From positions 2,232,001 through 2,296,000 of the forward strand of contig NZ_CP056122.1 of assembly GCF_018219455.1 (NCBI RefSeq): a stretch of DNA of 64,000 nucleotides. Reading direction: 5' to 3'. Both the position numbers and the translations under genes were made by a program. The stretch is from Moritella sp. 5. GTDB taxonomy: Bacteria > Pseudomonadota > Gammaproteobacteria > Enterobacterales > Moritellaceae. This document shows, in pieces, positions 49,182-61,088 of this stretch. The notes under the pieces were generated by a model that was given only the letters and a program-made list of their open reading frames with translations, was not told the DNA's origin and searched no databases. Each line of letters begins with the position of its first letter. Within the stretch, counting starts at the first letter, position 1.

Positions 49182-50227
49182 CCAAGCAAGCGAATAGCAG
49201 CTCAACACGTAATCAAGGTAAAACCATCGACATGCAAGTCGAAGAGGCTGTGGTGACGGTGAGCCGTGAAGCAAAAATATTTATGCCCGATCTCGATAAT
49301 GACTTGAGTAAAGTCCCCGCATCAATTACTGCTGAAGATGTGGTTGATGATACTTACCGTGGGTTAACGCTCGAAGCATTACCAATCAAAGGGTTAAAGT
49401 CGTTTGTTATCGGTATTGCGAGTATCTTTGGTGTGATGTCGTTATGGCAAATGTATACCATATTCCAAAGTGCCTTAGCCTTACATTGGATCGCTGCTGC
49501 AGGTTTTGCAGGATTGATTATCATTGTTGCTATGTTGGCATTACGTAGCGTGTTTAGCTTTATGTCTGATAAAGAAAATATGGCGGCATTAGCAGGGTTA
49601 CAAGATAAGGCCGAACAATTAAAAATGACCAATGATGTTGGTCAAGCGAAAGGCTTCATCGCTAAGTTAACGCAATTTTATAAAGGCAAACCACAAGCGG
49701 CTCTGCTAGCTAAAAGCATTAAAACTATGCCTGATTACAGCAGTGATAAAGAAGCTATGGTACATCTTGAACAGGTGTTTTTAGCTCCATTGGATAAAGA
49801 AGCGTTACGGCGTGTATCTAAGCACAGTTTACAAACGGGTATGGTGGTAGCTGCGAGTCCGTGGGCAACTGTTGATATGTTATTAGCATTGTGGCGTAGT
49901 ATGAAAATGATTGACGAGGTAGGGCAGGTATATGGCATGCGTCCTTCGTTGGCCAACCGTTACAAGCTATTAAAGAGCGTGCTCCGTTACTTGGCATTAA
50001 TTGGTGTAAGTGAACTTGCACTTGATGAAATGTTGCAAGAATTTGGCACAACAAGTTTAGCGGGAATAACAGGTGCTCGCTTAAGCCAAGGTGTTGGTGC
50101 TGGCGTATATACTGCACGTATTGGTTTAGCAGCTGTAGCGGCATGTCGACCTATTAGTTTTTCACCAGAGAACAAACCTAAATTGAAAGATTTTATAAAA
50201 CGTATAATACAACGTATGAATGGTTAA
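49172..50227 (+). CDS. ycjF: YcjF family inner membrane protein (DUF697)
   Basis: The 351-residue protein has two membrane helices (about 70-95 and 100-120) and a C-terminal DUF697 domain containing ASPWATVDMLLALWRSMKMI and GARLSQGVGAGVYTARIGLAAV. It overlaps the end of ycjX, so translation is coupled. The pair is conserved across gammaproteobacteria; function is poorly known. Confidence 0.92.
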   Translation: MPMTKQANSSSTRNQGKTIDMQVEEAVVTVSREAKIFMPDLDNDLSKVPASITAEDVVDDTYRGLTLEALPIKGLKSFVIGIASIFGVMSLWQMYTIFQSALALHWIAAAGFAGLIIIVAMLALRSVFSFMSDKENMAALAGLQDKAEQLKMTNDVGQAKGFIAKLTQFYKGKPQAALLAKSIKTMPDYSSDKEAMVHLEQVFLAPLDKEALRRVSKHSLQTGMVVAASPWATVDMLLALWRSMKMIDEVGQVYGMRPSLANRYKLLKSVLRYLALIGVSELALDEMLQEFGTTSLAGITGARLSQGVGAGVYTARIGLAAVAACRPISFSPENKPKLKDFIKRIIQRMNG

Positions 50228-50386
50228 ATTCTCGAATATAAATGGGTTCGTTCCCCGCTAAATCCCACCGACGTAGTCTATCATTGAAGCTCTGTATACG
50301 AATTGTATTATTTTTAGAGTTAAATGATAGGCTTACTGACTCCTCACTGGCAGTAAGCAATATTTTCAACGGTCAAAGGAGTTATT

Positions 50387-50713
50387 ATGTTGGAATACGT
50401 TGCACTCGGGTTACTGGTGTTTGTTGCTATTTTGCTGTTTTATGGTGTCATCGTTATACATGATATTCCTTATGAAATTGCTGTTCATCGTAATCATCCA
50501 CACCAAGATGCCATCCATGTTGCAGGCTGGGTAAGTCTCTTCACCTTACATGTACTTTGGCCGTTTTTGTGGATCTGGGCGACGTTGTACCGAACCGATC
50601 GTGGTTGGGGTTTCTCGGATGGTCATTCAAGTAAAGAACACATCGAAAAATTAAAACTTGAATTAACCGAAGTTAAACAACGTCTTAATGCGTTAGAAGG
50701 GGATAGTGAATAA
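50387..50713 (+). CDS. yiaW: DUF3302 inner membrane protein (YiaW-like)
   Basis: The 108-residue protein has two membrane helices and the DUF3302 pattern (HDIPYEIAVHRNHPHQDAIH, WVSLFTLHVLWPFLWIWA), with a C-terminal coiled coil. E. coli yiaW lies beside yiaV in the same way. AAAGGAG is 8 bases before the ATG. The stop and the next start share bases (TAATG). Confidence 0.85.
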   Translation: MLEYVALGLLVFVAILLFYGVIVIHDIPYEIAVHRNHPHQDAIHVAGWVSLFTLHVLWPFLWIWATLYRTDRGWGFSDGHSSKEHIEKLKLELTEVKQRLNALEGDSE

Positions 50714-51672
50714 TGGATTTATTACTCATATTAACGTATACCGCCTTATGTATCGCGATATTCAAAATCTTCAAGATCCCACTAAATAAATGGAGTGTAC
50801 CAACTGCGATACTTGGTGGCATCATTCTAATTGGTGGACTGGTGTTCACCATGAATTACAATCACCCATTTTCAGAGATTAGTCGGGAGTATTATGCGAC
50901 TACGCCAATTGTGCCTGCCGTTAGCGGTACTGTGATTGAAGTACCGGTTGAACCGAATCAATTACTGCTGAAAGGGGATGTGCTATTTAAGTTAGATCCT
51001 AAGCCGTTTCAAGACAAGCTAGATTCAATTGAAGCGAATTTAGTGGTTGCAGGCGCAGACTTTAAACGTGCGGAAAAACTGTATCGTAAAGGCATTGGTA
51101 AACAACGAGATGTTGATCTGACTCGTGGCCAAGTTGATGACTTAACGGCTAAGCGAGAGTTAGCCTTGTATAACCTTGATAGTACAGTTGTTCGTGCACC
51201 AACGGACGGTTATGTCGTACAACAAGCATTACGTCCAGGGATGCGTGCAGTGAGTATACCATTGCGACCTGTGATGGTGTTTAAACATAAAGACGATAAG
51301 AATCTGGTCGGTTGGTATCGTCAAAACAGTATGCTGCGTCTTAAGAAAGGTTCGAAAGCTGAAGTGATTTTTGATGGGCTGCCGGGTAAGGTGTTTAGCG
51401 CGAGGGTGATCGGTGCTATTCCTGCGATCCCTGAAGGACAAATTCAAGCATCGGGTACATTAATTTCAGTTCAGACTGCGCGAATTCCAGGCCGTATCCC
51501 TGTATTGTTTGAAATCGATGATCCACGCTTCGAGCAATACAGTGATGTGATGATGGGGGGCGCGTATGGTCAGACAGCAATCTATTCAGAGCATTTTGAA
51601 CACGTGGCTATCATGCGTAAAATATTGTTACGTATGGCATCTTGGATGAATTACCTCTTCCCATTCCATTAA
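50713..51672 (+). CDS. yiaV: HlyD-family membrane fusion protein (YiaV-like)
   Basis: This 319-residue protein has two N-terminal membrane helices followed by the HlyD/EmrA adaptor layout: lipoyl half (VPAVSGTVIEVPVEPNQLL), helical hairpin (about 110-150), second lipoyl half (APTDGYVVQQALRPGM) and beta-barrel. It would link an inner-membrane transporter to an outer-membrane channel, but none is encoded here. Translational coupling to yiaW indicates they act together. Confidence 0.85.
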   Translation: MDLLLILTYTALCIAIFKIFKIPLNKWSVPTAILGGIILIGGLVFTMNYNHPFSEISREYYATTPIVPAVSGTVIEVPVEPNQLLLKGDVLFKLDPKPFQDKLDSIEANLVVAGADFKRAEKLYRKGIGKQRDVDLTRGQVDDLTAKRELALYNLDSTVVRAPTDGYVVQQALRPGMRAVSIPLRPVMVFKHKDDKNLVGWYRQNSMLRLKKGSKAEVIFDGLPGKVFSARVIGAIPAIPEGQIQASGTLISVQTARIPGRIPVLFEIDDPRFEQYSDVMMGGAYGQTAIYSEHFEHVAIMRKILLRMASWMNYLFPFH

Positions 51673-51695
51673 TTTTTTTGTTTTACGACTTTCCT

Positions 51696-51728
51696 AAAGG
51701 ATTATAACCACGGTTATAGTCCTTTTTT
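51696..51728 (+). terminator. Terminator of yiaWV
   Basis: AAAGGATTATAACC and GGTTATAGTCCTTT form a stem with one mismatch around AC, with a T6 tract, between convergent genes. Confidence 0.9.
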
Positions 51729-51770
51729 ATCAGGCGCTTATTACGATATCTTTACTCAGACTCGATATTC

Positions 51771-52964
51771 TCACCTTCTATTTCTTTTTTTAACCTTTTT
51801 CTTGGCTTTTTTAAGCGCTTCAGCAAACTCTTTATGGAAAGGCTGTTCTGTAACAACAGGAATGACTTGGCCTATGCTCTTTTCAATACTCTTTAATAGC
51901 GTTATATCATTTTCGACAGCAAATGAAATGGCCATTCCACTTTTCCCTGCACGTGCAGTTCGTCCTATACGGTGTATGTAGTTTCTTGGATCTTCAGGCA
52001 GGTTATAGTTAATGACTAAAGTAATATTATCAACATCAATGCCACGAGCAGCAACATCCGTTGCAACTAATACGCGTAAATTAGCGTTTTTAAAGTGCTG
52101 TAACGCTTCCTCTCTCGCTGCTTGTGTTTTACCACTGTGAAGGCTAGCGGCAGTTATGGATGCTTCTTCGAGTGTGTTAACAATGATGTCTGCGCCAGGC
52201 TTGGTTTTACAAAAGATGAGCACTTTTTTATAGTCAGATTCTTTCAGGAGATTAAGTAGCAAAGGTACTTTATTCGATTTTTCAAGATGGTATACACTTT
52301 GATTAATCAAGTCGATAGTAACCGTTTTAGCAGTAATTTGAATTTTTGTTGGATCCGTTAATATTGCTTCTGCAAGTATCTCTATTTTAGGAGGCATAGT
52401 AGCTGAAAACAATAGTGTTTGTCGGTTCTTTGGCAGTTTAGATATGATGCTTTGAACATCCTTAAAGAACCCCATATCAAGCATTGTATCTGCTTCATCT
52501 AATACAAATACTTCTAACGCCTTAAAATTTATATCGCCCGTTTTAATTAAATCCAATAACCTTCCAGGGGTGGCTACTAAAATATCAAGTCCAAGTGCGA
52601 TAGAGTCAACTTGATCTTGTCTTCCTACACCACCATAAACAACCTTAGTTTTAAGCCCTAAACCATCAGAGTAGTCATCAATGTTTTGCATTATTTGCGA
52701 GGCAAGCTCTCTCGTGGGTGTTAGTATGAGCGAACGCGTGCTCTTAGCTTTGATATCTATTTTATTCCGCCCAAAATTATTGATAATAGGCAATGAAAAA
52801 GCCGCCGTTTTTCCTGTTCCCGTTTGCGCTATACCAAGAAGATCATTCCCATTAATAAGAGCTGGGATACATTCTTTTTGGATTGGTGTGGGCTGTTTAT
52901 AGCCTTTAAGACTAACGCGGTCAATAATTGACTCTAAAAGTGAAAATTCTTTAAACTCTGACAT
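51771..52964 (-). CDS. DEAD-box RNA helicase
   Basis: The 397-residue protein has the full helicase core: TPIQKECIP, AQTGTGKT, PTRELASQ, DEADTMLDMGF, SAT, ATDVAARGIDV and HRIGRTARAG, with a short basic tail (KKAKKKVKKRNRR). It is distinct from the RhlE-like protein at 44.5 kb. ATG 52964 is chosen because family members begin near the F-x-x-x-x-L motif; a TTG at 52988 opens the frame further. Several such helicases are usual in cold-water bacteria. Confidence 0.9.
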   Translation of the reverse strand: MSEFKEFSLLESIIDRVSLKGYKQPTPIQKECIPALINGNDLLGIAQTGTGKTAAFSLPIINNFGRNKIDIKAKSTRSLILTPTRELASQIMQNIDDYSDGLGLKTKVVYGGVGRQDQVDSIALGLDILVATPGRLLDLIKTGDINFKALEVFVLDEADTMLDMGFFKDVQSIISKLPKNRQTLLFSATMPPKIEILAEAILTDPTKIQITAKTVTIDLINQSVYHLEKSNKVPLLLNLLKESDYKKVLIFCKTKPGADIIVNTLEEASITAASLHSGKTQAAREEALQHFKNANLRVLVATDVAARGIDVDNITLVINYNLPEDPRNYIHRIGRTARAGKSGMAISFAVENDITLLKSIEKSIGQVIPVVTEQPFHKEFAEALKKAKKKVKKRNRR

Positions 52965-53137
52965 GCTGGCTCGGTATTCTTTAATCAATAGCCTATTATT
53001 CTAACAGAATGCTTTAACATATTTAAGACGTATTCAAGATGACTTTTTCTGACAAATACCTACAAAATATCTCACAAAAACAGTTCAGTAATCAGTGTTC
53101 TTACCCCTGTATTTTCAGTCAACTATAGGGGGCTGAA

Positions 53138-53242
53138 ATGACTCTATATTCACCGGAAAGAAAAGAAGCTGTCTTGTGTAGGATGTTACCATTTCAATTG
53201 AGTAATACGTTCTGTAATTCGGGGGGCTGGGGGGGGATTTAG
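53138..53242 (+). pseudogene. N-terminal remnant of an IS3-type transposase OrfA
   Basis: An ATG with GGGGG upstream opens 34 codons reading MTLYSPERKEAVLCRMLPF, like the start of IS3-family OrfA proteins from marine gammaproteobacteria. The frame then degenerates through G6 and G8 runs to a stop. No helix-turn-helix or OrfB follows. Confidence 0.6.
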
Positions 53243-53289
53243 TCATTATATCCTATCAAGGTTTGTCCAAGAATGAGTTGATATTGCCA
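53238..53289 (+). repeat. Island repeat copy A (partial)
   Basis: The segment from TTTAGTCATTATATC through CTATCAAGG, TTTGTCCAAGAATGAGTTG resembles the middle of copies B-D (CTATCAAGG and TGTCCA are shared with C). It lacks the stem-loop part. An IS3-like remnant directly precedes it. Confidence 0.6.
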
Positions 53290-53835
53290 TACGAGATAAT
53301 ACCCAATAAGTGTTATTCACTACGTAAAGTTTAGTGACTCAATTCCTAGTAGCCATGGAGTTACGAAAACAGGTGGAACTTTAAAATAATAACAATATGT
53401 TACGCTCAACTTGGCCTGTTTCGTAAGAATCTCGGCAGACCTAAAGTACATCCTTTGACGATTATTTGCCTTATGGCAAGAAATAAGAGTGATTAAATAT
53501 TCCAACAGTAATAACCGTCGAAGTTATCATATTAAGGGCCCTAGGACGTAATAATATTGTGGTAACGTTGTTGGGATATATTATAATTGTTATAATGCTC
53601 ATTATTGCTCGAATTATGGTTTTTCTTATTTTGTTTAACCCCAAATAAGGTTTTTCATTCTGAAATGTCTAAAGTGATGCTGCTGTAGTTTTTTTTGTTG
53701 TTTAGTTGGATTAATATAGTTATATCATCGATTTAAAGTGATATTGGATACATAGAGATTTTAACATTAAAAGCGCTACATTCGTGAGATATTAATGTTG
53801 TACTTATTGATTAATAATTAACTAAAGGATTAGGT

Positions 53836-54039
53836 ATGTTAAAAAAACAATTATCAGCAATCGCAATTCTGTTTTCAGGATTAGCTATCACATCTGCGCA
53901 AGCTACAATTATTGAGGAAGTAAGCGTTACACTTGAAGGAAGTACTCAAGCTGTAACAGCTGAGTTACCATTAACTGTGGAATTAAAATACGGTACGCTT
54001 GAACCTTACCACCCAGATAAAACTCATGTCGGAAAGTGA
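53836..54039 (+). CDS. Small exported protein
   Basis: I do not recognise this 67-residue protein. It has a clear Sec signal peptide (about 1-24, ending AQA) and a mature part of about 43 residues with alternating hydrophobic residues (VSVTLEGSTQAVTAELPLTVELKYG), suggesting a small beta fold. AAAGGA precedes the ATG. It lies between repeat copies A and B, with no neighbour on its strand. Confidence 0.7.
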   Translation: MLKKQLSAIAILFSGLAITSAQATIIEEVSVTLEGSTQAVTAELPLTVELKYGTLEPYHPDKTHVGK

Positions 54040-54581
54040 ACTCTCAATTAACGTTATCTAAGCATTGTATTTACAATGCTTAGTCTCCTGTCAGGAATGC
54101 GATCTTGCAGAGTTAGGCTTGTGTCGTAAATTCAAATTTAATTGTTAAGAATAAAGGACATACTATCCCTCAGATAGAATTATGCTGCTGTTTCATCAAG
54201 CTTTTCACAATAAAAACCATATGATAAGAGTGATATAACTAAGTTAAACTTACAGTACTCAATAAGTGTTACACGCATAAAGTACGTTATGGTTAGTGAG
54301 AGTGAGGGAGTCTGCTAGATCCCTTCACTTCCCCTACAAAATATAATGAGTATTGCCATCCGCTAGTACAATAACTATAACAAGACTTTGTCCAGAATTG
54401 AGTTGGCTAGCCTAGCTAACTCAAAATTGCCCCATTCTGCGTTAGAGCAGTTACTCACTCACGATGTTTTCATATCGATTTGCCATACATTTTCTTATGT
54501 GAGGAATGAATGCTGTTTTTCATCGCAAGAGCAAAACAGGCCACCAATAAAGGGGGACGGTCTCACTGAGCTCACAGCCAC
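54040..54581. other. Intergenic region with repeat copy B
   Basis: These 542 bases include the 12-mer CAATAAGTGTTA at 54260 (shared with 53304), an imperfect hairpin at 54299-54332 (AGTGAGGGA/TCCCTTCACT) and repeat copy B. No credible gene is seen; a 65-codon frame at 54388 is carried by the repeat. Confidence 0.6.
54345..54433 (+). repeat. Island repeat copy B
   Basis: This copy starts AATGAGTATTGCC and ends GCCCC. It has the shared TTTGTCCAG box and a stem TTGAGTTGGCTA/TAGCTAACTCAA. It aligns over its whole 89 bases with copies C and D. Confidence 0.75.
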
Positions 54582-54992
54582 TTAAGATAAGGTAGAAAGG
54601 GGAATAAAAAATATAAAGCCGAATGCGAAACAATTTCCCCCGAACGCAGAGAGCAGACCAAGGTAAAAATAGCGACCAAATGCTTTCTTAGTGGCCTGAT
54701 GCCATGATTTAAACTCATCTTGAGTAACATGGTGCCCATAGCGAAAAAGTAAATAAGAAAACCATATATATATTGCATATGAAGCAAACACCCAAGACAT
54801 ATTCGCATTAACACCAACACTAATTCTGAATTGAAGTCGTTCTGGTACTCCTGAGATTATGCTTTCTATAATTATTTGCTTGTGGTTCCTTAATTTTATC
54901 GATAAGTAAATATTAGGTATGAGAACAGCAATAGCACCTAACACAGAAAGTATTGCTGAATATTTCATCATCTCGTGTATTAGTATATCCAT
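54582..54992 (-). CDS. Small membrane protein, candidate immunity protein
   Basis: The 136-residue protein has about four hydrophobic segments (10-30, 60-80, 75-92, 110-133) and no known motif. Its ATG overlaps the stop of the upstream LysM gene (TAATG), so the two are translationally coupled, the usual layout of a toxin and its immunity protein. That role is inferred from order and topology alone. Confidence 0.65.
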   Translation of the reverse strand: MDILIHEMMKYSAILSVLGAIAVLIPNIYLSIKLRNHKQIIIESIISGVPERLQFRISVGVNANMSWVFASYAIYIWFSYLLFRYGHHVTQDEFKSWHQATKKAFGRYFYLGLLSAFGGNCFAFGFIFFIPLSTLS

Positions 54993-56446
54993 TAGTCAAA
55001 TATAACCTCTTCAATAAATGAGCCAACTTCGTTGGATTTGTCACCGCCATACATACCCCAAGCAAGCGTACCAGCACTCACTAGTACTATTGATAATCCA
55101 CCTGTAACCGGAGCAGCCATTAAAGCTATGCCTAACACATACCCAGCCGTAACATTAAATATTCCTGACGACAAATTCCTAGCTGCCGACCTCCCACATG
55201 TTTCGCTCATTACTCCGCTAATGTTACAATCCCGATAAATATCAGCGGCGTTGCCATATAGACCTAAACCGGTGACAATCCATCCGCCAATTTTGATTTG
55301 TTTACTGAACGACATAGCTTGCTTGTATAGTGGCGTCATTCCAATTCCACCCATCGCTTTAGCGAAATCTTTGGAACGGTAAATTTGTCGCTTGTTAACG
55401 TTTAACAGGTTACCTATATTTTTCGCTTGGAGCCCTTTTATGTACTTAGGCTTACCCATCTGCCCGAGCTGTGACTTCATCTCTCCTCGGAATGCTCTTT
55501 CTCGTTTTCGCCAATCCTTATAGTCAGTATTAGAGTAGAGAGCTTGCCCTGTTAAACCTGCTGTTTTGGACGATATGTAATTAGAGTAATCCGAAAAAGC
55601 TTTTAGTCTTTTGCTAATATGGTCACCTTGCGTTCCCACACCAGCGATTACCGCGCCTGTGCTTGCTATAATGTTATTAAGGTTAATTTCAATAAGCTCA
55701 CCAGTATCAGCATTGACTTGCAAGCTATCCATCCCACCTTCTGCGGACATGGTTAAGACTTCAGTAACAACATCATGGTTATCAGCAAACCATTGTCGTT
55801 CATCTACGTTTAAAGTGAGATACTGAGTCATTAACTCTTTAGCTTGCGCAATGGTATTTTCTTCTTCATTGTGCTTTGTTTTCCAAGTAGTTACTACTAC
55901 TGGCATTCCTGATTTTATTTGCCCAAAGGAATACTTTAAATGCGGGTTAGTGTTCTTAATATGCTCAACAAAAAATAAATCATCACTGCCATAAACATCT
56001 TCAGCAAACGATTCAAGCGTTTCATCACTGTCACCAAAAAATAAATAACAATCATCAATATCTTTTATTGCTGATGTCTTAATGCCGAGGTTAAGCAAGG
56101 GCATTGCAAAAGGTAGTGTCCCTTCTTTTAACGTGTGAACCTCTGATGTCAACATTTTACCGTTAAACTGATACGTTGAATTAGGTGTGTTATTTTCAAT
56201 TTTAACCGCAGATGCAGGCAATGTATTATCAACCTCGTTACATTGAGCTTGTTTCGATTCCTCAACTTGTAATGAGTCACCAGCTGCTAAGCTGTCGGGG
56301 TCTTTGTCAAACTTCATATTAAGGTTTAATAATGCTTTAGGCGCTAATCCGTATTTAGCCGCTATGCTACTCCATGTATCTCCTATTTTTACTACGTGTG
56401 TTTGAGCTGGGGGGGGTATTGATTTCATTACTGTCATCACTACCAT
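54992..56446 (-). CDS. LysM protein with hydrophobic C-terminal domain (toxin candidate, possibly the 3' part of a frameshifted gene)
   Basis: The 484-residue frame starts in the overlap with the upstream 225-residue frame and carries a LysM domain (about 17-62, THVVKIGDTWSSIAAKYGLA) and a second LysM-like stretch (about 140-190). A mainly helical region of about 200 residues follows, then a Gly/Ala-rich hydrophobic tail (about 385-470) with possible membrane hairpins. LysM binds peptidoglycan; a membrane-active C terminus suggests a secreted toxin. The frame joins the preceding one if a C8 run at 56409-56416 is read as C7, giving about 683 residues. The ATGs at the start of this frame have only a weak ribosome site. 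Confidence 0.7.
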   Translation of the reverse strand: MVVMTVMKSIPPPAQTHVVKIGDTWSSIAAKYGLAPKALLNLNMKFDKDPDSLAAGDSLQVEESKQAQCNEVDNTLPASAVKIENNTPNSTYQFNGKMLTSEVHTLKEGTLPFAMPLLNLGIKTSAIKDIDDCYLFFGDSDETLESFAEDVYGSDDLFFVEHIKNTNPHLKYSFGQIKSGMPVVVTTWKTKHNEEENTIAQAKELMTQYLTLNVDERQWFADNHDVVTEVLTMSAEGGMDSLQVNADTGELIEINLNNIIASTGAVIAGVGTQGDHISKRLKAFSDYSNYISSKTAGLTGQALYSNTDYKDWRKRERAFRGEMKSQLGQMGKPKYIKGLQAKNIGNLLNVNKRQIYRSKDFAKAMGGIGMTPLYKQAMSFSKQIKIGGWIVTGLGLYGNAADIYRDCNISGVMSETCGRSAARNLSSGIFNVTAGYVLGIALMAAPVTGGLSIVLVSAGTLAWGMYGGDKSNEVGSFIEEVIFD

Positions 56447-57044
56447 TTACCCGTTTTAGGGGTTCTTCTAACGCTGATATTAGAGCCTTTGTATCAATAC
56501 TGACTGCATTCTTAGTAAGCCACCCATCATTAATATCAGAAAAATCGTCTTGAATTAATTTATCTTGACGATAAAAAAGGTGCTGCTTCACAGGTGCATT
56601 TTTTAACTTTGTTGGAAGTAAGACGAAGTTAAGTGAAAGGTCGATAATATCATCAGAAAGTGAGTCACTTGTAGAGTGGGTTGGACTAAAATTCCACGCT
56701 CCGGGTTTGGTATTTATTTTATATTCATGTGCAAATTTAGAATCGATAAAATGATAAATAAAGCCCTGTGTAGGTAGCCCAAGTCGGTTTTCAACCTGAA
56801 CAGCTAGATAGCAAGGTAAAAATGCATCGTGAACGGCTCCATCCACAGTGACTTCATCGATTTGATAAGCACTCATAAATGAATCACGATAGCGTAACAT
56901 TAACGTTTTTGGGGTATTATCAGCAAGCGGGTATGTGAGTCTAGTTTTAGATGGACCCATTTCTTCAGCTTTCCAATTAGCAGGTATTACATCTTTAATT
57001 TGAAAAGGGTATATTAGATTTAATGGCTTGCTTGTATGTTTCAA
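56367..57044 (-). CDS. N-terminal part of the LysM protein, or separate protein upstream of it
   Basis: This 225-residue frame begins with TTG and shows no domain I recognise. It looks globular (LIYPFQIKDVIPANWKAEEM; FLPCYLAVQVENRLGLPTQG) and soluble, with no signal peptide. It runs into the C8 run and continues as unrelated residues for about 14 codons before a stop, while the LysM frame opens on the other side. It therefore probably encodes the N-terminal delivery domain of the LysM protein. It also overlaps the 66-residue frame upstream by 50 bases. Confidence 0.6.
   Translation of the reverse strand: MKHTSKPLNLIYPFQIKDVIPANWKAEEMGPSKTRLTYPLADNTPKTLMLRYRDSFMSAYQIDEVTVDGAVHDAFLPCYLAVQVENRLGLPTQGFIYHFIDSKFAHEYKINTKPGAWNFSPTHSTSDSLSDDIIDLSLNFVLLPTKLKNAPVKQHLFYRQDKLIQDDFSDINDGWLTKNAVSIDTKALISALEEPLKRVNGSDDSNEINTPPSSNTRSKNRRYME
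56409..56416 (-). repeat. C8 homopolymer at a frame junction
   Basis: Eight G on the plus strand (C on the coding strand) lie where the 225-residue frame and the LysM frame overlap. With seven C the frames fuse as NTPPAQTHVVK. Slipped-strand change in length or ribosomal slippage could switch the product; a sequencing error could also explain it. Confidence 0.7.
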
Positions 57045-57195
57045 TACCGCAATGAATATCTAAGGCGTAATGATGCTTTAATTCTTTAACTTCATGCACG
57101 ATACGATTACTTTGGTTTTCTCTATCGCTTATCTCTTTTTGTCTACGAGTATCGTAGTCCTTTACTGCCTCACTAGGCAAACTTTCATATCGCAT
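56995..57195 (-). CDS. Small charged protein upstream of the LysM locus
   Basis: This 66-residue frame (MRYESLPSEAVKDYDTRRQ) is rich in charged residues and likely helical, with AGG 9 bases before ATG. It overlaps the next frame by 50 bases. It could be a small adaptor or chaperone for the following protein, or the true 5' end of that protein if a second frameshift exists. I do not recognise it. Confidence 0.5.
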   Translation of the reverse strand: MRYESLPSEAVKDYDTRRQKEISDRENQSNRIVHEVKELKHHYALDIHCGIETYKQAIKSNIPFSN

Positions 57196-57561
57196 ACAAT
57201 ACCTATAAATAAAACCGATTCCAAAAGGAATAATCTTATCAGTTCATAAATTTAAATTCTCACTGAAATCATAGGTAAAATAACTATTTTTCAAATAGGT
57301 ATATTTAAATTTCTCTTAATTTATGTGTAAGGGGATGTTTTACTTGCTAGGTGAACTTATGGCATTGGATATAACAAAATCTAATGAGTAGCACCACCGT
57401 CTAGTATAATTACACTATCAAGGTTCTGTCCAGCTTTGGCTTAGTGCAATTGCGCTAAGCCAAATTTTCCCCAAAATCAGTTGCGCAGATTAAAAGACAA
57501 GCAAACTGAATAAGGTTTTTGATTTAAAAAAGTTAGCGAGCTTACGGGAGCAAGCCGCTTT
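57196..57561. other. Intergenic region with repeat copy C
   Basis: About 370 bases between the LysM locus start and the ubiquitin-like gene. Repeat copy C occupies 57383-57472; the rest is AT-rich and probably includes the promoter of the LysM locus. Confidence 0.55.
57383..57472 (+). repeat. Island repeat copy C
   Basis: This 90-base copy begins AATGAGTAGC and ends TTTTCCCC. It contains CTATCAAGG, CTGTCCAGC and a 28-base near-perfect palindrome with arms TTGGCTTAGTGCAA and TTGCGCTAAGCCAA. Confidence 0.78.
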
Positions 57562-57795
57562 CTATCGAAGTACGAGATACAAAGTTGATCCTTCTTCAAC
57601 AGAATAGTCTGCAATCGTCTTACTGTCCTCAACTTGCTTCCCTAAATATATAAGACGAAACGCTTCAGGTGGTATCCCTCCTTCTTTATCTTTTATCTTC
57701 AATTTAAGTACTTTAATAGTATCCGTTAGCTCTACACCATAAGTTGAAACTCGGTTAGATCCTGCTAGCTTTTTTACATTAATTTGTATACTCAT
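57562..57795 (-). CDS. Ubiquitin-like protein
   Basis: The 77-residue product starts at ATG 57795 with AGGGA 8 bases upstream (the frame runs 19 codons further). It aligns with eukaryotic ubiquitin over almost its whole length: VKKLAG (ubiquitin VKTLTG), LKIKDKEGGIPPE (AKIQDKEGIPPD), RLIYLGKQVEDSKTIADY (RLIFAGKQLEDGRTLSDY) and STLYLVLR (STLHLVLR). It ends at the equivalent of Arg72, with no LRGG tail, so conjugation as in eukaryotes is not possible from this gene. The Leu8/Ile44/Val70 patch and Lys48 are kept; Lys63 is Glu. No E1, E2, E3 or JAB protease is visible nearby. Confidence 0.88.
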   Translation of the reverse strand: MSIQINVKKLAGSNRVSTYGVELTDTIKVLKLKIKDKEGGIPPEAFRLIYLGKQVEDSKTIADYSVEEGSTLYLVLR

Positions 57796-58392
57796 GAACA
57801 ATTCCCTGTTGTAAGTTGAAATATATATGACTACGTGGACTCTAAGCCACAAAACCGTATCAATATTTTATTATTATCAATGCTTTATCATTATCGTTAA
57901 CATTGTATTGTCAAGTCAAGTCGAATAGGACGCTTTCTGTTTAATGGCTATTTAAACTCGATGGCTACGCGGCTTATCAGCAGGCAAGCAACAAACTTGT
58001 GGGCTGCTGGCTCATGCTCGGCGTAAATTCAAAGACGCGATAGTGGCACTAAGGAAAAACAAAGCAGGAAAAATGAGTAAGGCCGATATGGCACTGAGCA
58101 TGATAGCTAAGCTGTTACGTAGAAGACAGTCGATTTAATGTAGAAATAACCGCGCAGTAAAACCTGACTTGTCGGGCGCGAAGCGAGGTGGGGGCTTCAA
58201 CTTAGCAGATGAATAATGATTATTGTGACAAACAGTTATTGATACTAAGTAATATTTCTGTGCCTGTACTATTGAATAAGCAATTACCTTATGTGATTCA
58301 TATCCCTAAAGTGTTACGTGGTGGTTTAGTTTTCTTTTAGTGTTGCTATATTTAATTGTGCTTTTAATTAAGACATTCTTTCAATATATAAA
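57796..58392. other. Intergenic region with IS66 remnant
   Basis: About 600 bases between the ubiquitin-like gene and the crystallin-like gene. The IS66-type fragment fills 57957-58138. The rest is AT-rich, with no gene or repeat recognised. Confidence 0.55.
57957..58138 (+). pseudogene. IS66-family transposase (TnpC) remnant
   Basis: The translation LDGYAAYQQASNKLVGCW is followed, after a one-base frameshift, by AHARRKFKDAIVALRKNKAG. This is the IS66 DDE transposase segment usually read as DGYAGY...GCWAHARRKF. A stop follows about 40 codons later. The rest of the element and its inverted repeats are missing. Confidence 0.8.
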
Positions 58393-59064
58393 ATGGAAAT
58401 TACACATATTATGGAAAACACTAAAATTACTGCTCGTACTGTATTATTCTTTTCAGATTTTAGTTTCGAAGGTTCTCAATATGGTCCTTATGAGGTTACT
58501 GATAAGGTGTATGACTGTGTTAAAGAAGATTTCAATGACAAAGCTTATTCAGTTAAAGTTGGATCTGCTTGCTCTCTCCACTGCTGGCAACACCAAGGCG
58601 CAGCGGGTGTTTATCGAGAGTACAAAGAAGACCAGGCTAATATAAATGAACTCCAAGGACTCTCTTGTTTTAAAATTGTTCCAGAAGAAAACCAAGTGGT
58701 TAAAATTCGTCTCATCGACCATTCAGGCTCTAATTCTAACGAATACACCTTGTTCGCTAAAATCGCAGGTAGCATTGGCGTTATGCCTGAAGTCATTACA
58801 ACGTCTAATGATAATGATTATATTGCTGTTGGGGATATGACTCCCGAGCATGATATGTACATTTCGGTACAAGTTCGTGACACTGACCTTTCATCTAGCA
58901 ATTATGGTGAATTTGTTGCTAATGGGGCGCTGTATTTTAAAACGGATGGTGTTGAAGCATCTGTTGATTGGGACGCGTCTCTTAATTATCCTAAAAATAT
59001 GGCTGTAGAGGTTAAAGGTAACAATTTATTCAATTTGATCCTTGATACGGTCAATTTTATGTAA
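58393..59064 (+). CDS. Beta/gamma-crystallin-like protein
   Basis: This 223-residue protein has no signal peptide. Its N-terminal half has the spacing and composition of a beta/gamma-crystallin domain: VLFFSDFSFEGSQYGPYEVTD, in which the Phe/Gly/Tyr pattern of the motif is seen, and DFNDKAYSVKVGSACSLHCW. Bacterial members bind calcium through (N/D)(N/D)xx(S/T)S motifs; here NDKAYS is a variant, so binding is uncertain. The C-terminal half is beta-rich and unrecognised. No strong ribosome site is present; ATG 58411 is an alternative start. Confidence 0.6.
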   Translation: MEITHIMENTKITARTVLFFSDFSFEGSQYGPYEVTDKVYDCVKEDFNDKAYSVKVGSACSLHCWQHQGAAGVYREYKEDQANINELQGLSCFKIVPEENQVVKIRLIDHSGSNSNEYTLFAKIAGSIGVMPEVITTSNDNDYIAVGDMTPEHDMYISVQVRDTDLSSSNYGEFVANGALYFKTDGVEASVDWDASLNYPKNMAVEVKGNNLFNLILDTVNFM

Positions 59065-59146
59065 ACCAACGACAAGAACCGCATTATAACCCTTTCGTCA
59101 GATTATTTTAACAATAACACGTATGGGTTGCATGTCTCACCATGTT

Positions 59147-59204
59147 AAGGCAAGTTTAAAATGTCACATTGTTGATATCTTTAATCCCGAGATAAACTTG
59201 CCTT
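59147..59204. repeat. Perfect 12-bp inverted repeat
   Basis: AAGGCAAGTTTA and TAAACTTGCCTT are perfect complements separated by 34 bases, between the convergent crystallin-like and CNNM genes. It could act as a hairpin terminator for either side, but no T-tract of note follows. Confidence 0.65.
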
Positions 59205-59270
59205 GATTTACTGCTCCAACATGACCACTGCGAATAACGATCTTATGGTTAGTGGGGATGAATAGATAAT

Positions 59271-60332
59271 CTAATCAGCTCTGGTATTGCCTGGTTTAAT
59301 GCCGAATTTTTTAGCTTTGATTTTCCATAAGCGTTTTGCTAATTTTTGCATATCAATATCTTTGTCATCTTCGTCGATAATTTCACGACCAATCAGGGTT
59401 TCCAAGATATCTTCCAGTGTTAATATTCCCCGAACAGTACCATATTCATTTACAATTAGCGCAATATGGATTTTACCAGATAATAATTCCTTCATGACAT
59501 GAGATAAAGATATAACATCCAGAAAAGTTGGCATTTTTCGGAGGTAGTTATTTAATCGGGTATCTTTATTGCCGCGAGCTTGCGCCAATAGCAGATCAGA
59601 GCGGATAACAAAACCAACAATGTCATCTGGATCTTTGTCATAAATGGGTATTCGCGTAAATCGAGTTTTCTTATATTTATGAAAAAACTCTTCTACTTTT
59701 AAATTTTGGGAAGCACAAAGTATCACTGTGCTTGGTGTCATCACATCATTGGCCTTAATTTTTTGTAATAGCAGCAGGTTTTGTAATATGGTGGCTTCTT
59801 CCTTATCGATATGACCTTCCTCGGCACTTAACTGTGCCATGACGGTAAATTCATTGCGATTAAAACCTGCTGAGTCTTCCTTACCCTGAATGTTACGGGT
59901 AATAATTTCCGACATTTTGATAAACGGATACAATACAAAAATCAGAAACTTCAGACTGTAAGCGGTGACTGGGGCCAACTCCTTCCAATACGAAGCGCCC
60001 AGTGTTTTAGGAATTATCTCTGAAAAAACGAGGATCAGTAAAGTTAATACCGCTGAAACAATACCCAGTGAAGAGTTTCCAAAAACAACTGTTGCTTGAG
60101 CACCAACTCCTGCGGCACCTGCCGTATGCGCAATTGTATTCAGAGTTAGGATCGCTGCTAACGGCTTATTAATATCCTCTTTTAATACGTGTAGAATTCC
60201 ACCTGCTTTATGCCCTTCTTTTTCCATTATGGCAATGTGTACACGAGACACACTCAACAAAACAGCTTCAGCAATAGAGCACAAGAATGAAAAAAATAAG
60301 GCAATAAATAAATATAATCCTAGAAGAAACAT
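59271..60332 (-). CDS. CNNM/CorC-type transporter (DUF21 plus CBS pair)
   Basis: This 353-residue inner membrane protein has a DUF21/CNNM domain of about four helices (1-150, with SFLCSIAEAVLLSVSR and FSEIIPKTLGASYW), then two CBS domains (about 190-320, NDVMTPSTVILCASQN; IVNEYGTVRGILTLEDILETLIG). Members move or regulate Mg2+ or Co2+, or were called hemolysin-like. The C-terminal CorC/HlyC domain is absent, so this is the shorter form. It is monocistronic. Confidence 0.9.
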   Translation of the reverse strand: MFLLGLYLFIALFFSFLCSIAEAVLLSVSRVHIAIMEKEGHKAGGILHVLKEDINKPLAAILTLNTIAHTAGAAGVGAQATVVFGNSSLGIVSAVLTLLILVFSEIIPKTLGASYWKELAPVTAYSLKFLIFVLYPFIKMSEIITRNIQGKEDSAGFNRNEFTVMAQLSAEEGHIDKEEATILQNLLLLQKIKANDVMTPSTVILCASQNLKVEEFFHKYKKTRFTRIPIYDKDPDDIVGFVIRSDLLLAQARGNKDTRLNNYLRKMPTFLDVISLSHVMKELLSGKIHIALIVNEYGTVRGILTLEDILETLIGREIIDEDDKDIDMQKLAKRLWKIKAKKFGIKPGNTRAD

Positions 60333-60740
60333 AACTTCCCCTTTTGCTACGGAATCCGCAAATTATTTATGTTAACTATGTCACTTCCGTTTTAAACGTA
60401 CAACATCACTCATATAAAACATCAATTAAAATTTTATAGTTAACAGTTGAATGTCTTCACTTATCCAACAAAAAACAATGAGTATTACTATCAGCTTGTA
60501 CAATAATTCTAACACGTTTATGTCCAACAATGGCTTAGTGCAATAATGCTAAGCATTATTGACCCCTTAATAAGTAAACTTGGTATAACTTGATTATTTT
60601 TTTCAACATATTCCATGAGAACATGACTGCACGGTTTTCCAGAAATAGATCATCGGAAACTTGGAATGTAATCTTGCAAACTTGCAACATGGACCTGAGT
60701 TATTTATCATCAAGGTAACTGAATTAAGAGTGAAAAATCC
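60333..60740. other. Intergenic region with repeat copy D
   Basis: About 400 bases; repeat copy D occupies 60477-60566, about 140 bases upstream of the start of the CNNM gene. The rest is AT-rich and without gene features. Confidence 0.55.
60477..60566 (+). repeat. Island repeat copy D
   Basis: This 90-base copy begins AATGAGTATTACTATC and ends TTGACCCC. It carries ATGTCCAAC and a stem AATGGCTTAG/CTAAGCATT. The stem differs from those of B and C on both arms, mostly keeping base pairing. Confidence 0.75.
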
Positions 60741-61088
60741 ATGACACAGAAAGTATCAACAGAAGTGCAAACTGAATCGACACGCATTGCTAACGGTATT
60801 AAAAAACCAGGTCAAAGCAGAGAGCAGACTAAATTGATCGCAGCAGGTATTGAAAAGGGAATAGCCGAATACAAAAAACAGCATAAAGCTAAAGTTCGCC
60901 AACTTGATAAACAGAAAAAACAAAAAATAAGATCTAATAACGCGGCAGTAGCAAAAGAAAATGAAGCAGATATTGAAATTGAACAAGCAAAATCAAGTTC
61001 AAGTCGATTACCTTGGGCATTATTAGCACTAAGCTGGGCTGGTTTTGCAGGTTATCTTGTACAAACTGGTGTGCTTAAAGTAGGTTAA
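60741..61088 (+). CDS. DUF2956-like small membrane protein
   Basis: The 115-residue protein opens with SRIANGIKKPGQSREQTKLIAAGIEKGIAEYKKQHK-like sequence (two blocks: IKKPGQSREQTKLIAAGIEK and the following Lys-rich helix), and ends in one membrane helix (about 93-112, LPWALLALSWAGFAGYL). This matches DUF2956 of Vibrio and Shewanella, which has no known function. It sits upstream of a bidirectional hairpin. Confidence 0.75.
   Translation: MTQKVSTEVQTESTRIANGIKKPGQSREQTKLIAAGIEKGIAEYKKQHKAKVRQLDKQKKQKIRSNNAAVAKENEADIEIEQAKSSSSRLPWALLALSWAGFAGYLVQTGVLKVG

Follow-up and report, generated by a model that had tools for sequence, protein, structure and literature searches.

A tail-less, stand-alone ubiquitin-family gene on a small unit shared by two Moritella genomes

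The genome of Moritella sp. 5 is a single 5.0-Mb contig, of which a stretch of 64,000 nucleotides (NZ_CP056122.1, positions 2,232,001 to 2,296,000; hereafter, the window) was analyzed here with a focus on a gene encoding a ubiquitin-family protein of 77 amino acids. The open reading frame (ORF) listing and the translation place this gene on the minus strand, running from 57795 to 57562; the plus-strand translation of 57562-57795 is riddled with stops. An earlier note on this DNA had given these coordinates correctly and had left the strand unstated. The product begins at an ATG at 57795 and ends in STLYLVLR, followed by a TAG codon. The ribosome site mentioned in the earlier note corresponds to a Shine-Dalgarno-like AGGG (57807-57804, minus strand), recognized by eye 8 bases before the ATG and kept in Moritella sp. 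JT01, the second genome carrying the gene. Further upstream, a promoter-like TTGACT-18-GATAAT (57890..57919, minus strand) agrees with the consensus at 10 of 12 positions, a consensus match only, and its part 57897-57919 is kept in JT01; the region contains 5 promoter-like sites, compared with a mean of 2.2 (standard deviation 1.7) in shuffled sequences. Just past the stop lies a terminator-like hairpin with a T-run (57535..57559, minus strand; -13.6 kcal/mol, z -2.98, equaled by 1 of 200 shuffles); a consensus terminator scan listed none. No known RNA family reached the gathering score in 50200-61000.

The protein matches PF00240 over profile positions 1-70 of 72 in a Pfam scan (67.5 bits, E 8.6e-19; the curated cut-off is 25.4 bits), and BLASTP aligns it to human ubiquitin with 40 of 75 residues identical (53%) and 57 of 75 similar. 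Among sequences of solved structures, 353 distinct ones matched, and ubiquitin chains top the best 60 of the 353. The AlphaFold model (confidence score pLDDT, 88.7) predicts the ubiquitin beta-grasp fold, 0.7 Å from ubiquitin over 74 residues. Given the PF00240 E value and the ubiquitin chains leading the structure matches, the earlier assignment to ubiquitin homologs, as opposed to other beta-grasp proteins, holds: the Moritella protein is a genuine eukaryotic-type member of the ubiquitin family, with similarity far beyond chance.

No cysteine occurs among the 77 residues, and the C-terminal residue is arginine. The N-terminus reads MSIQINVKK, and inspection by eye revealed no signal peptide. 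An N-terminal extension harboring a hidden signal peptide was considered and judged improbable: the only plausible far start, TTG at 57852, reads TTA in the JT01 copy, and the ATG is the start that suits the ribosome site. Neither copy contains a stop within about 24 in-frame codons upstream of the ATG, where some of the changes are conservative. Scans with Pfam and with profiles of type VI secretion system (T6SS) effectors found no MIX, PAAR or other T6SS marker in the protein, and its ORF has no match in PHROGs. A role in a defense system was likewise discarded, the ubiquitin ORF having no PADLOC match and the hits on a DEAD-box helicase (51771-52988) being generic.

Both known copies end at the Arg72 equivalent, with the TAG in the same place, in agreement with the claim that the LRGG tail is lacking. 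The codons past the stop read K-A-A in both copies, not R-G-G, so that the tail is missing altogether and not just truncated by one stop codon, and the common ancestor of the two copies was already without LRGG. Without LRGG, the E1 thioester cannot form, and ordinary conjugation of the Moritella protein is ruled out with high confidence. No E1, E2 or deubiquitinase (DUB) family was found in the 8 neighboring ORFs scanned against Pfam, as had also appeared from the earlier inspection. Genome-wide, the E2 family PF00179 gave no match, but neither did it in control genomes, and the search for E1 and DUB was confined to the neighboring ORFs. A conjugatable bacterial modifier, like those of the Bil or CBASS Cap2/Cap3 systems, could be imagined from the ubiquitin fold and from Lys 6, 27, 29, 33 and 48, all kept in this copy, and the Bil and CBASS type II genes are similar in being bacterial genes of ubiquitin-like logic. 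However, those systems possess an E1, E2 and DUB operon, whereas the Moritella gene has no such operon among the scanned neighbors, no PADLOC match and no conjugable Gly-Gly end; the genome search for E2 was empty, but had no positive control. Conjugation of this protein is very unlikely, and a modifier of this kind is barely credible.

In a sample of 11 Moritella genomes, one per species, PF00240 is present in two, Moritella sp. 5 and JT01. The JT01 protein is 95% identical and is encoded at an unrelated locus. The DNA common to the two genomes (57488..57919, minus strand) spans promoter to terminator, with 95% identity over 57554-57879, 90% over 57488-57535 and 22 of 23 bases identical at 57897-57919, and its flanks are unrelated. 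Beyond this unit of about 0.4 kb, nothing alike was found when 5 kb were compared with 11 kb, and the whole window gave no other match to the JT01 ubiquitin locus. No trace of the 428-base unit or of broken copies was detected in the other 9 genomes of the genus.

The two copies differ by 4 amino acids and by 4-5 synonymous changes, and 8 of the 84 bases upstream of the gene differ. Synonymous divergence (dS) of the ubiquitin gene is 0.085-0.112 by three methods, as against 0.27-0.42 for ycjX and ycjF, the only two reference genes of this comparison, in which the ubiquitin gene is itself short; nonsynonymous divergence (dN) is 0.016-0.026, similar to that of ycjX and ycjF (0.020-0.025). With 52 synonymous sites and p 0.27, both set by hand, 5 or fewer synonymous changes have P 0.002, and 4 or fewer, P 0.0005. 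Because dS of the ubiquitin gene is below that of the core genes, the common source of the two copies appears to postdate the divergence of the two species, which suggests, from sequence comparison, that the gene was transferred within or into Moritella. The acquisition proposed in the earlier note thus gains partial support from the patchy occurrence and from the lower divergence than in core genes; the tree, in contrast, does not name a donor. In this tree, built from 15 sequences and 72 columns, a branch of 0.85 sets the Moritella pair apart, but 11 of the 12 inner branches are not resolved and the bootstrap has not settled, so that the donor cannot be named.

Support for selection on the protein is weak (P 0.035-0.088, depending on how one codon with a double change is counted). 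This weak signal, the restriction to two genomes and the mobile-element remnants around the gene would all fit a passenger or a decaying acquisition without present function. Yet both copies preserve an open reading frame with its start and stop, as well as the ribosome site, and nonsynonymous change is below synonymous change by all three methods, which renders mere carriage rather improbable.

Elsewhere in bacteria, PF00240 was detected at E 0.001 in 4 of 394 genomes sampled from the order (3 over the cut-off), in 5 of 369 from the class (2 over), in 2 of 398 from the phylum (both over) and in 3 of 329 from the family of G342 (all over), the genome of Moritella sp. 5 being included in these samples. 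These sets and that of the genus overlap, and the first scan of the genome collection detects close relatives only. The comparison of frames covered the genomes over the cut-off; matches below it occurred in four genomes, G019, G431, G640 and G680. In the five non-Moritella proteobacterial genomes concerned (G342, G538, G806, G1230 and G1246), the domain lies inside frames of 2525, 344, 281, 517 and 527 residues, respectively. Judged by eye, four of these have signal-like starts, and the fifth, in G806, begins directly with the ubiquitin domain, followed by another domain. A single plasmid among 72,556 records, from Ruminococcus albus, carries a relative (51% identity) consisting of a signal-like start, the domain and an extension. 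Among the bacterial cases compared, the bare single domain is confined to the Moritella pair. The fused bacterial domains (R. albus 7 plasmid; L005, L030, L031 and L014; IMG/VR contigs L023-L027) share with it the sporadic presence of PF00240 in bacteria and the lack of a Gly-Gly end, but have signal-like N-termini (by eye) and further domains, whereas the Moritella protein is the domain alone.

DNA of the locus was found neither in plasmids nor in Escherichia coli genomes. Phage carriage was considered and rejected, as 50,697 phage records yielded no match at E 0.01 or E 10. In viral contigs, the protein used alone as the query hit 54 stretches, of which none is a relative, and scans with alignments returned 8 and 9 loci, all other ubiquitins. 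Among the fused forms, three genomes of one genus (L005, L030, L031) encode large signal-like proteins that start with the ubiquitin domain, two of which continue into autotransporter- or outer-membrane-barrel-like regions, a recurrent and little described architecture. Two viral-collection contigs (L026, L027) encode autotransporter-like proteins of about 486 residues with a ubiquitin domain at the start. Another such contig, with bacterial-looking flanks, contains a 108-residue ORF (L020:2908-3234) with a signal-like start and a complete ubiquitin ending in LRGG, a secreted-looking bacterial ubiquitin with its tail.

The stand-alone state of the Moritella protein, unlike the fused bacterial domains, together with the lack of a signal peptide visible by eye, the ATG with a ribosome site and the gene's own promoter-like site, would suit a domesticated binder that is never exported, that is, a cytosolic ubiquitin-fold adaptor or regulator with a bacterial partner. 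Presence in 2 of 11 genomes of the genus, however, argues against a housekeeping role, and no conserved partner gene is apparent, the flanks being different in the two genomes. We regard such an intracellular role as unlikely on balance, albeit a serious contender.

To our knowledge, bacteria very rarely possess a free-standing ubiquitin of the eukaryotic type, and BfUbb of Bacteroides fragilis (gene ubb) is the one known case with a described function. Literature searches, by titles and abstract openings within open-access scope, turned up no other stand-alone bacterial ubiquitin, and by the same parts of the text, none of the listed papers on Moritella and ubiquitin concerned a bacterial ubiquitin. 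The likening to BfUbb in the earlier note is apt: its solved structure (8hm2) is among the matches, at 48% identity, and it is the closest known case, both proteins being stand-alone, tail-less and patchy among strains. BfUbb, however, has a signal sequence and is secreted, whereas the Moritella protein shows no signal by eye; BfUbb ends in Cys and the Moritella protein in Arg; and BfUbb is 63% identical to human ubiquitin, according to PMC3352274, compared with 53% for the Moritella protein, which is longer by 3 residues in two loops, the insertions being at SNR and GG. According to PMC5705921, sensitive strains are inhibited by synthetic BfUbb, and no evident immunity gene is needed by the producers; BfUbb thus shows that a bacterial ubiquitin without its tail can have antibacterial activity. 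A citing paper attributes sensitivity to BfUbb to a tyrosine in a B. fragilis peptidyl-prolyl isomerase (PMC12396204).

The surface of the Moritella protein is partly that of ubiquitin. Under the residue numbering and the list of Ile44-patch residues that we take to hold for ubiquitin, this copy retains the equivalents of Leu8, Ile44 and Val70 and has Tyr in place of His68; the claim that the patch is kept is true of this copy, but in JT01, Leu8 is replaced with Ile, and Lys48 with Gln. Altogether, 8 of the 9 patch residues are kept here, as against 40 of 72 positions identical overall (hypergeometric P 0.032, for one of 7 residue sets tried, uncorrected). The JT01 copy retains 6 of these 9 (P 0.27). 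Of the 4 positions at which the two copies disagree, 3 (8, 36 and 48) fall on the Ile44/Ile36 interaction surfaces, so that the binding surface is partly kept, not frozen. NEDD8 scores like the Moritella protein on the Ile44 patch. The likeness to eukaryotic ubiquitin and NEDD8 is one of fold, the NEDD8 comparison (34 of 72 aligned residues identical) relying on what we take to be its sequence; relative to both, the Moritella protein has an insertion of two residues in its first hairpin and one of a single residue ahead of the Ile36 loop, and it lacks the LRGG tail and the polyubiquitin or ribosomal fusion of eukaryotic ubiquitin.

The retention of the patch in this copy raises the possibility of a decoy for eukaryotic ubiquitin-binding proteins, which, delivered into a host or grazer, would occupy receptors or enzymes without being conjugated. 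Consistent with this, the fused relatives L005, L030 and L031 have largely lost the patch, keeping only 3, 3 and 1 of the 9 residues despite higher overall identity, and BfUbb inhibits ubiquitination in vitro, as stated in PMC3352274. The decoy nonetheless appears doubtful, in view of the lower retention in JT01, the location of the differences on these very surfaces, and the lack of a delivery signal and of any identified host-directed neighbor.

The ubiquitin gene lies in a variable region. Between the end of ycjF (50227) and the DUF2956 gene (60741), 10.4 kb (50228-60673) have no match in the JT01 counterpart, where the same flanking genes enclose 2.9 kb with one ORF of 664 residues (L028:10015-12918); that 2.9-kb stretch is itself flanked by two stretches, both matching window positions 60674-60777. 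Repeat comparison identified three copies of a dispersed hairpin repeat on the plus strand, left (54323..54433), middle (57374..57472) and right (60455..60575), each comprising TGTCCA, a variable stem and CCCC (at 54389, 57427 and 60521). These copies divide the variable region which, with different DNA between the same flanking genes in JT01, corresponds well to the previously described island bounded by repeats. Four further sites in the genome (L008-L010, L012) carry relatives of the repeat with varying stem sequence; in JT01, a weaker relative (74.5% over 51 bases, E 0.002) follows the ubiquitin gene. Upstream of the ubiquitin gene, frame translations reveal a transposase-like remnant (57955..58140, plus strand), which by eye we take to be of the IS66 type. 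Also next to the gene, at 58393-59064 (plus strand), a beta/gamma-crystallin domain is joined to a Membrane_bind domain (PF08964, PF14564).

ORFs resembling antibacterial T6SS effectors lie between the left and middle repeats and belong to a unit separate from the ubiquitin gene. One ORF (56367..57044, minus strand) matches residues 59-257 of VPA1263-type MIX effectors (E 3.9e-32, 111.5 bits), and a LysM ORF recognized by Pfam (54992..56446, minus strand) reaches E 8.7e-17 over positions 267-376; neither attains that profile's whole-protein cut-off of 900. Over residues 129-484, the LysM ORF shares 40% identity with a portion of a Vibrio PAAR-domain protein; this was one of 18 matching plasmid records, and in none did the match reach 80% coverage. 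An abutting ORF of 136 residues (54582..54992, minus strand), without a family match in Pfam, T6SS-effector profiles, PADLOC or PHROGs, might encode an immunity protein, judging by position only. Across 54582-57195 (minus strand), effector-like ORFs of 66, 225 and 484 residues overlap in different frames and are followed by the 136-residue ORF; they are perhaps a split or broken effector with its immunity gene. The kinship with mobile MIX-type effectors (VPA1263 and kin) resides in these neighbors, not in the ubiquitin gene. According to PMC4549250 and PMC9602870, MIX-type effectors are shared among marine bacteria via mobile elements. The effector-like neighbors, absent from the earlier note, favor a context of bacterial competition at least as much as a host context. 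VipB genes are present in 7 of the 11 genomes of the genus, including both ubiquitin carriers.

Our preferred explanation, held tentatively and at somewhat short of even confidence, is that a ubiquitin-family member was acquired, moved within Moritella as a promoter-gene-terminator unit and serves as a non-covalent binder, most likely in antagonism. The source would be a eukaryote or its virus, and the self-contained unit would then move between Moritella lineages. With the chain ending at the Arg72 equivalent, the protein would fold as ubiquitin and be barred from the conjugation cascade, so that it would act by non-covalent binding through the beta-grasp surface. Non-covalent binding would be its most probable mode of action, perhaps in the service of antagonism, a use suggested by the hotspot of T6SS-effector-like genes, the strain-patchy occurrence and the analogy with BfUbb; by that analogy, antagonism would rank first, an adaptor inside the cell second and a decoy in a host third. 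Since no signal peptide is visible, exit from the cell would need a T6SS, vesicles or lysis.

Several observations weigh against this preferred explanation. The main gap is that, without a signal peptide visible by eye, the export route of BfUbb is missing. A hairpin repeat separates the ubiquitin gene from the T6SS-like ORFs; VipB is present in 5 of the 9 genomes of the genus without the ubiquitin gene, which makes the T6SS link nonspecific; and in JT01, the gene adjoins an esterase-like ORF and a reverse-transcriptase fragment, with no T6SS effector. Selection, moreover, is weakly tested by so few differences. A bolder version, in which this is a second, independent weaponized bacterial ubiquitin, a signal-less, tail-less cassette spread among marine Moritella for T6SS-associated or lysis-released antagonism, with a binding surface diversifying between strains, is correspondingly speculative and, in our estimate, unlikely.

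The Moritella gene is not unprecedented, given BfUbb, but it is distinct: without a signal by eye, ending in Arg, more divergent, and carried on a small, probably moving unit in a marine gammaproteobacterium. It represents a second case, in an unrelated marine lineage and in two species at different loci. It lets one ask why bacteria take up ubiquitin and yet drop the conjugating end, as a toxin, a decoy or a plain binding module, readings that a protein so small and easily expressed makes directly separable.
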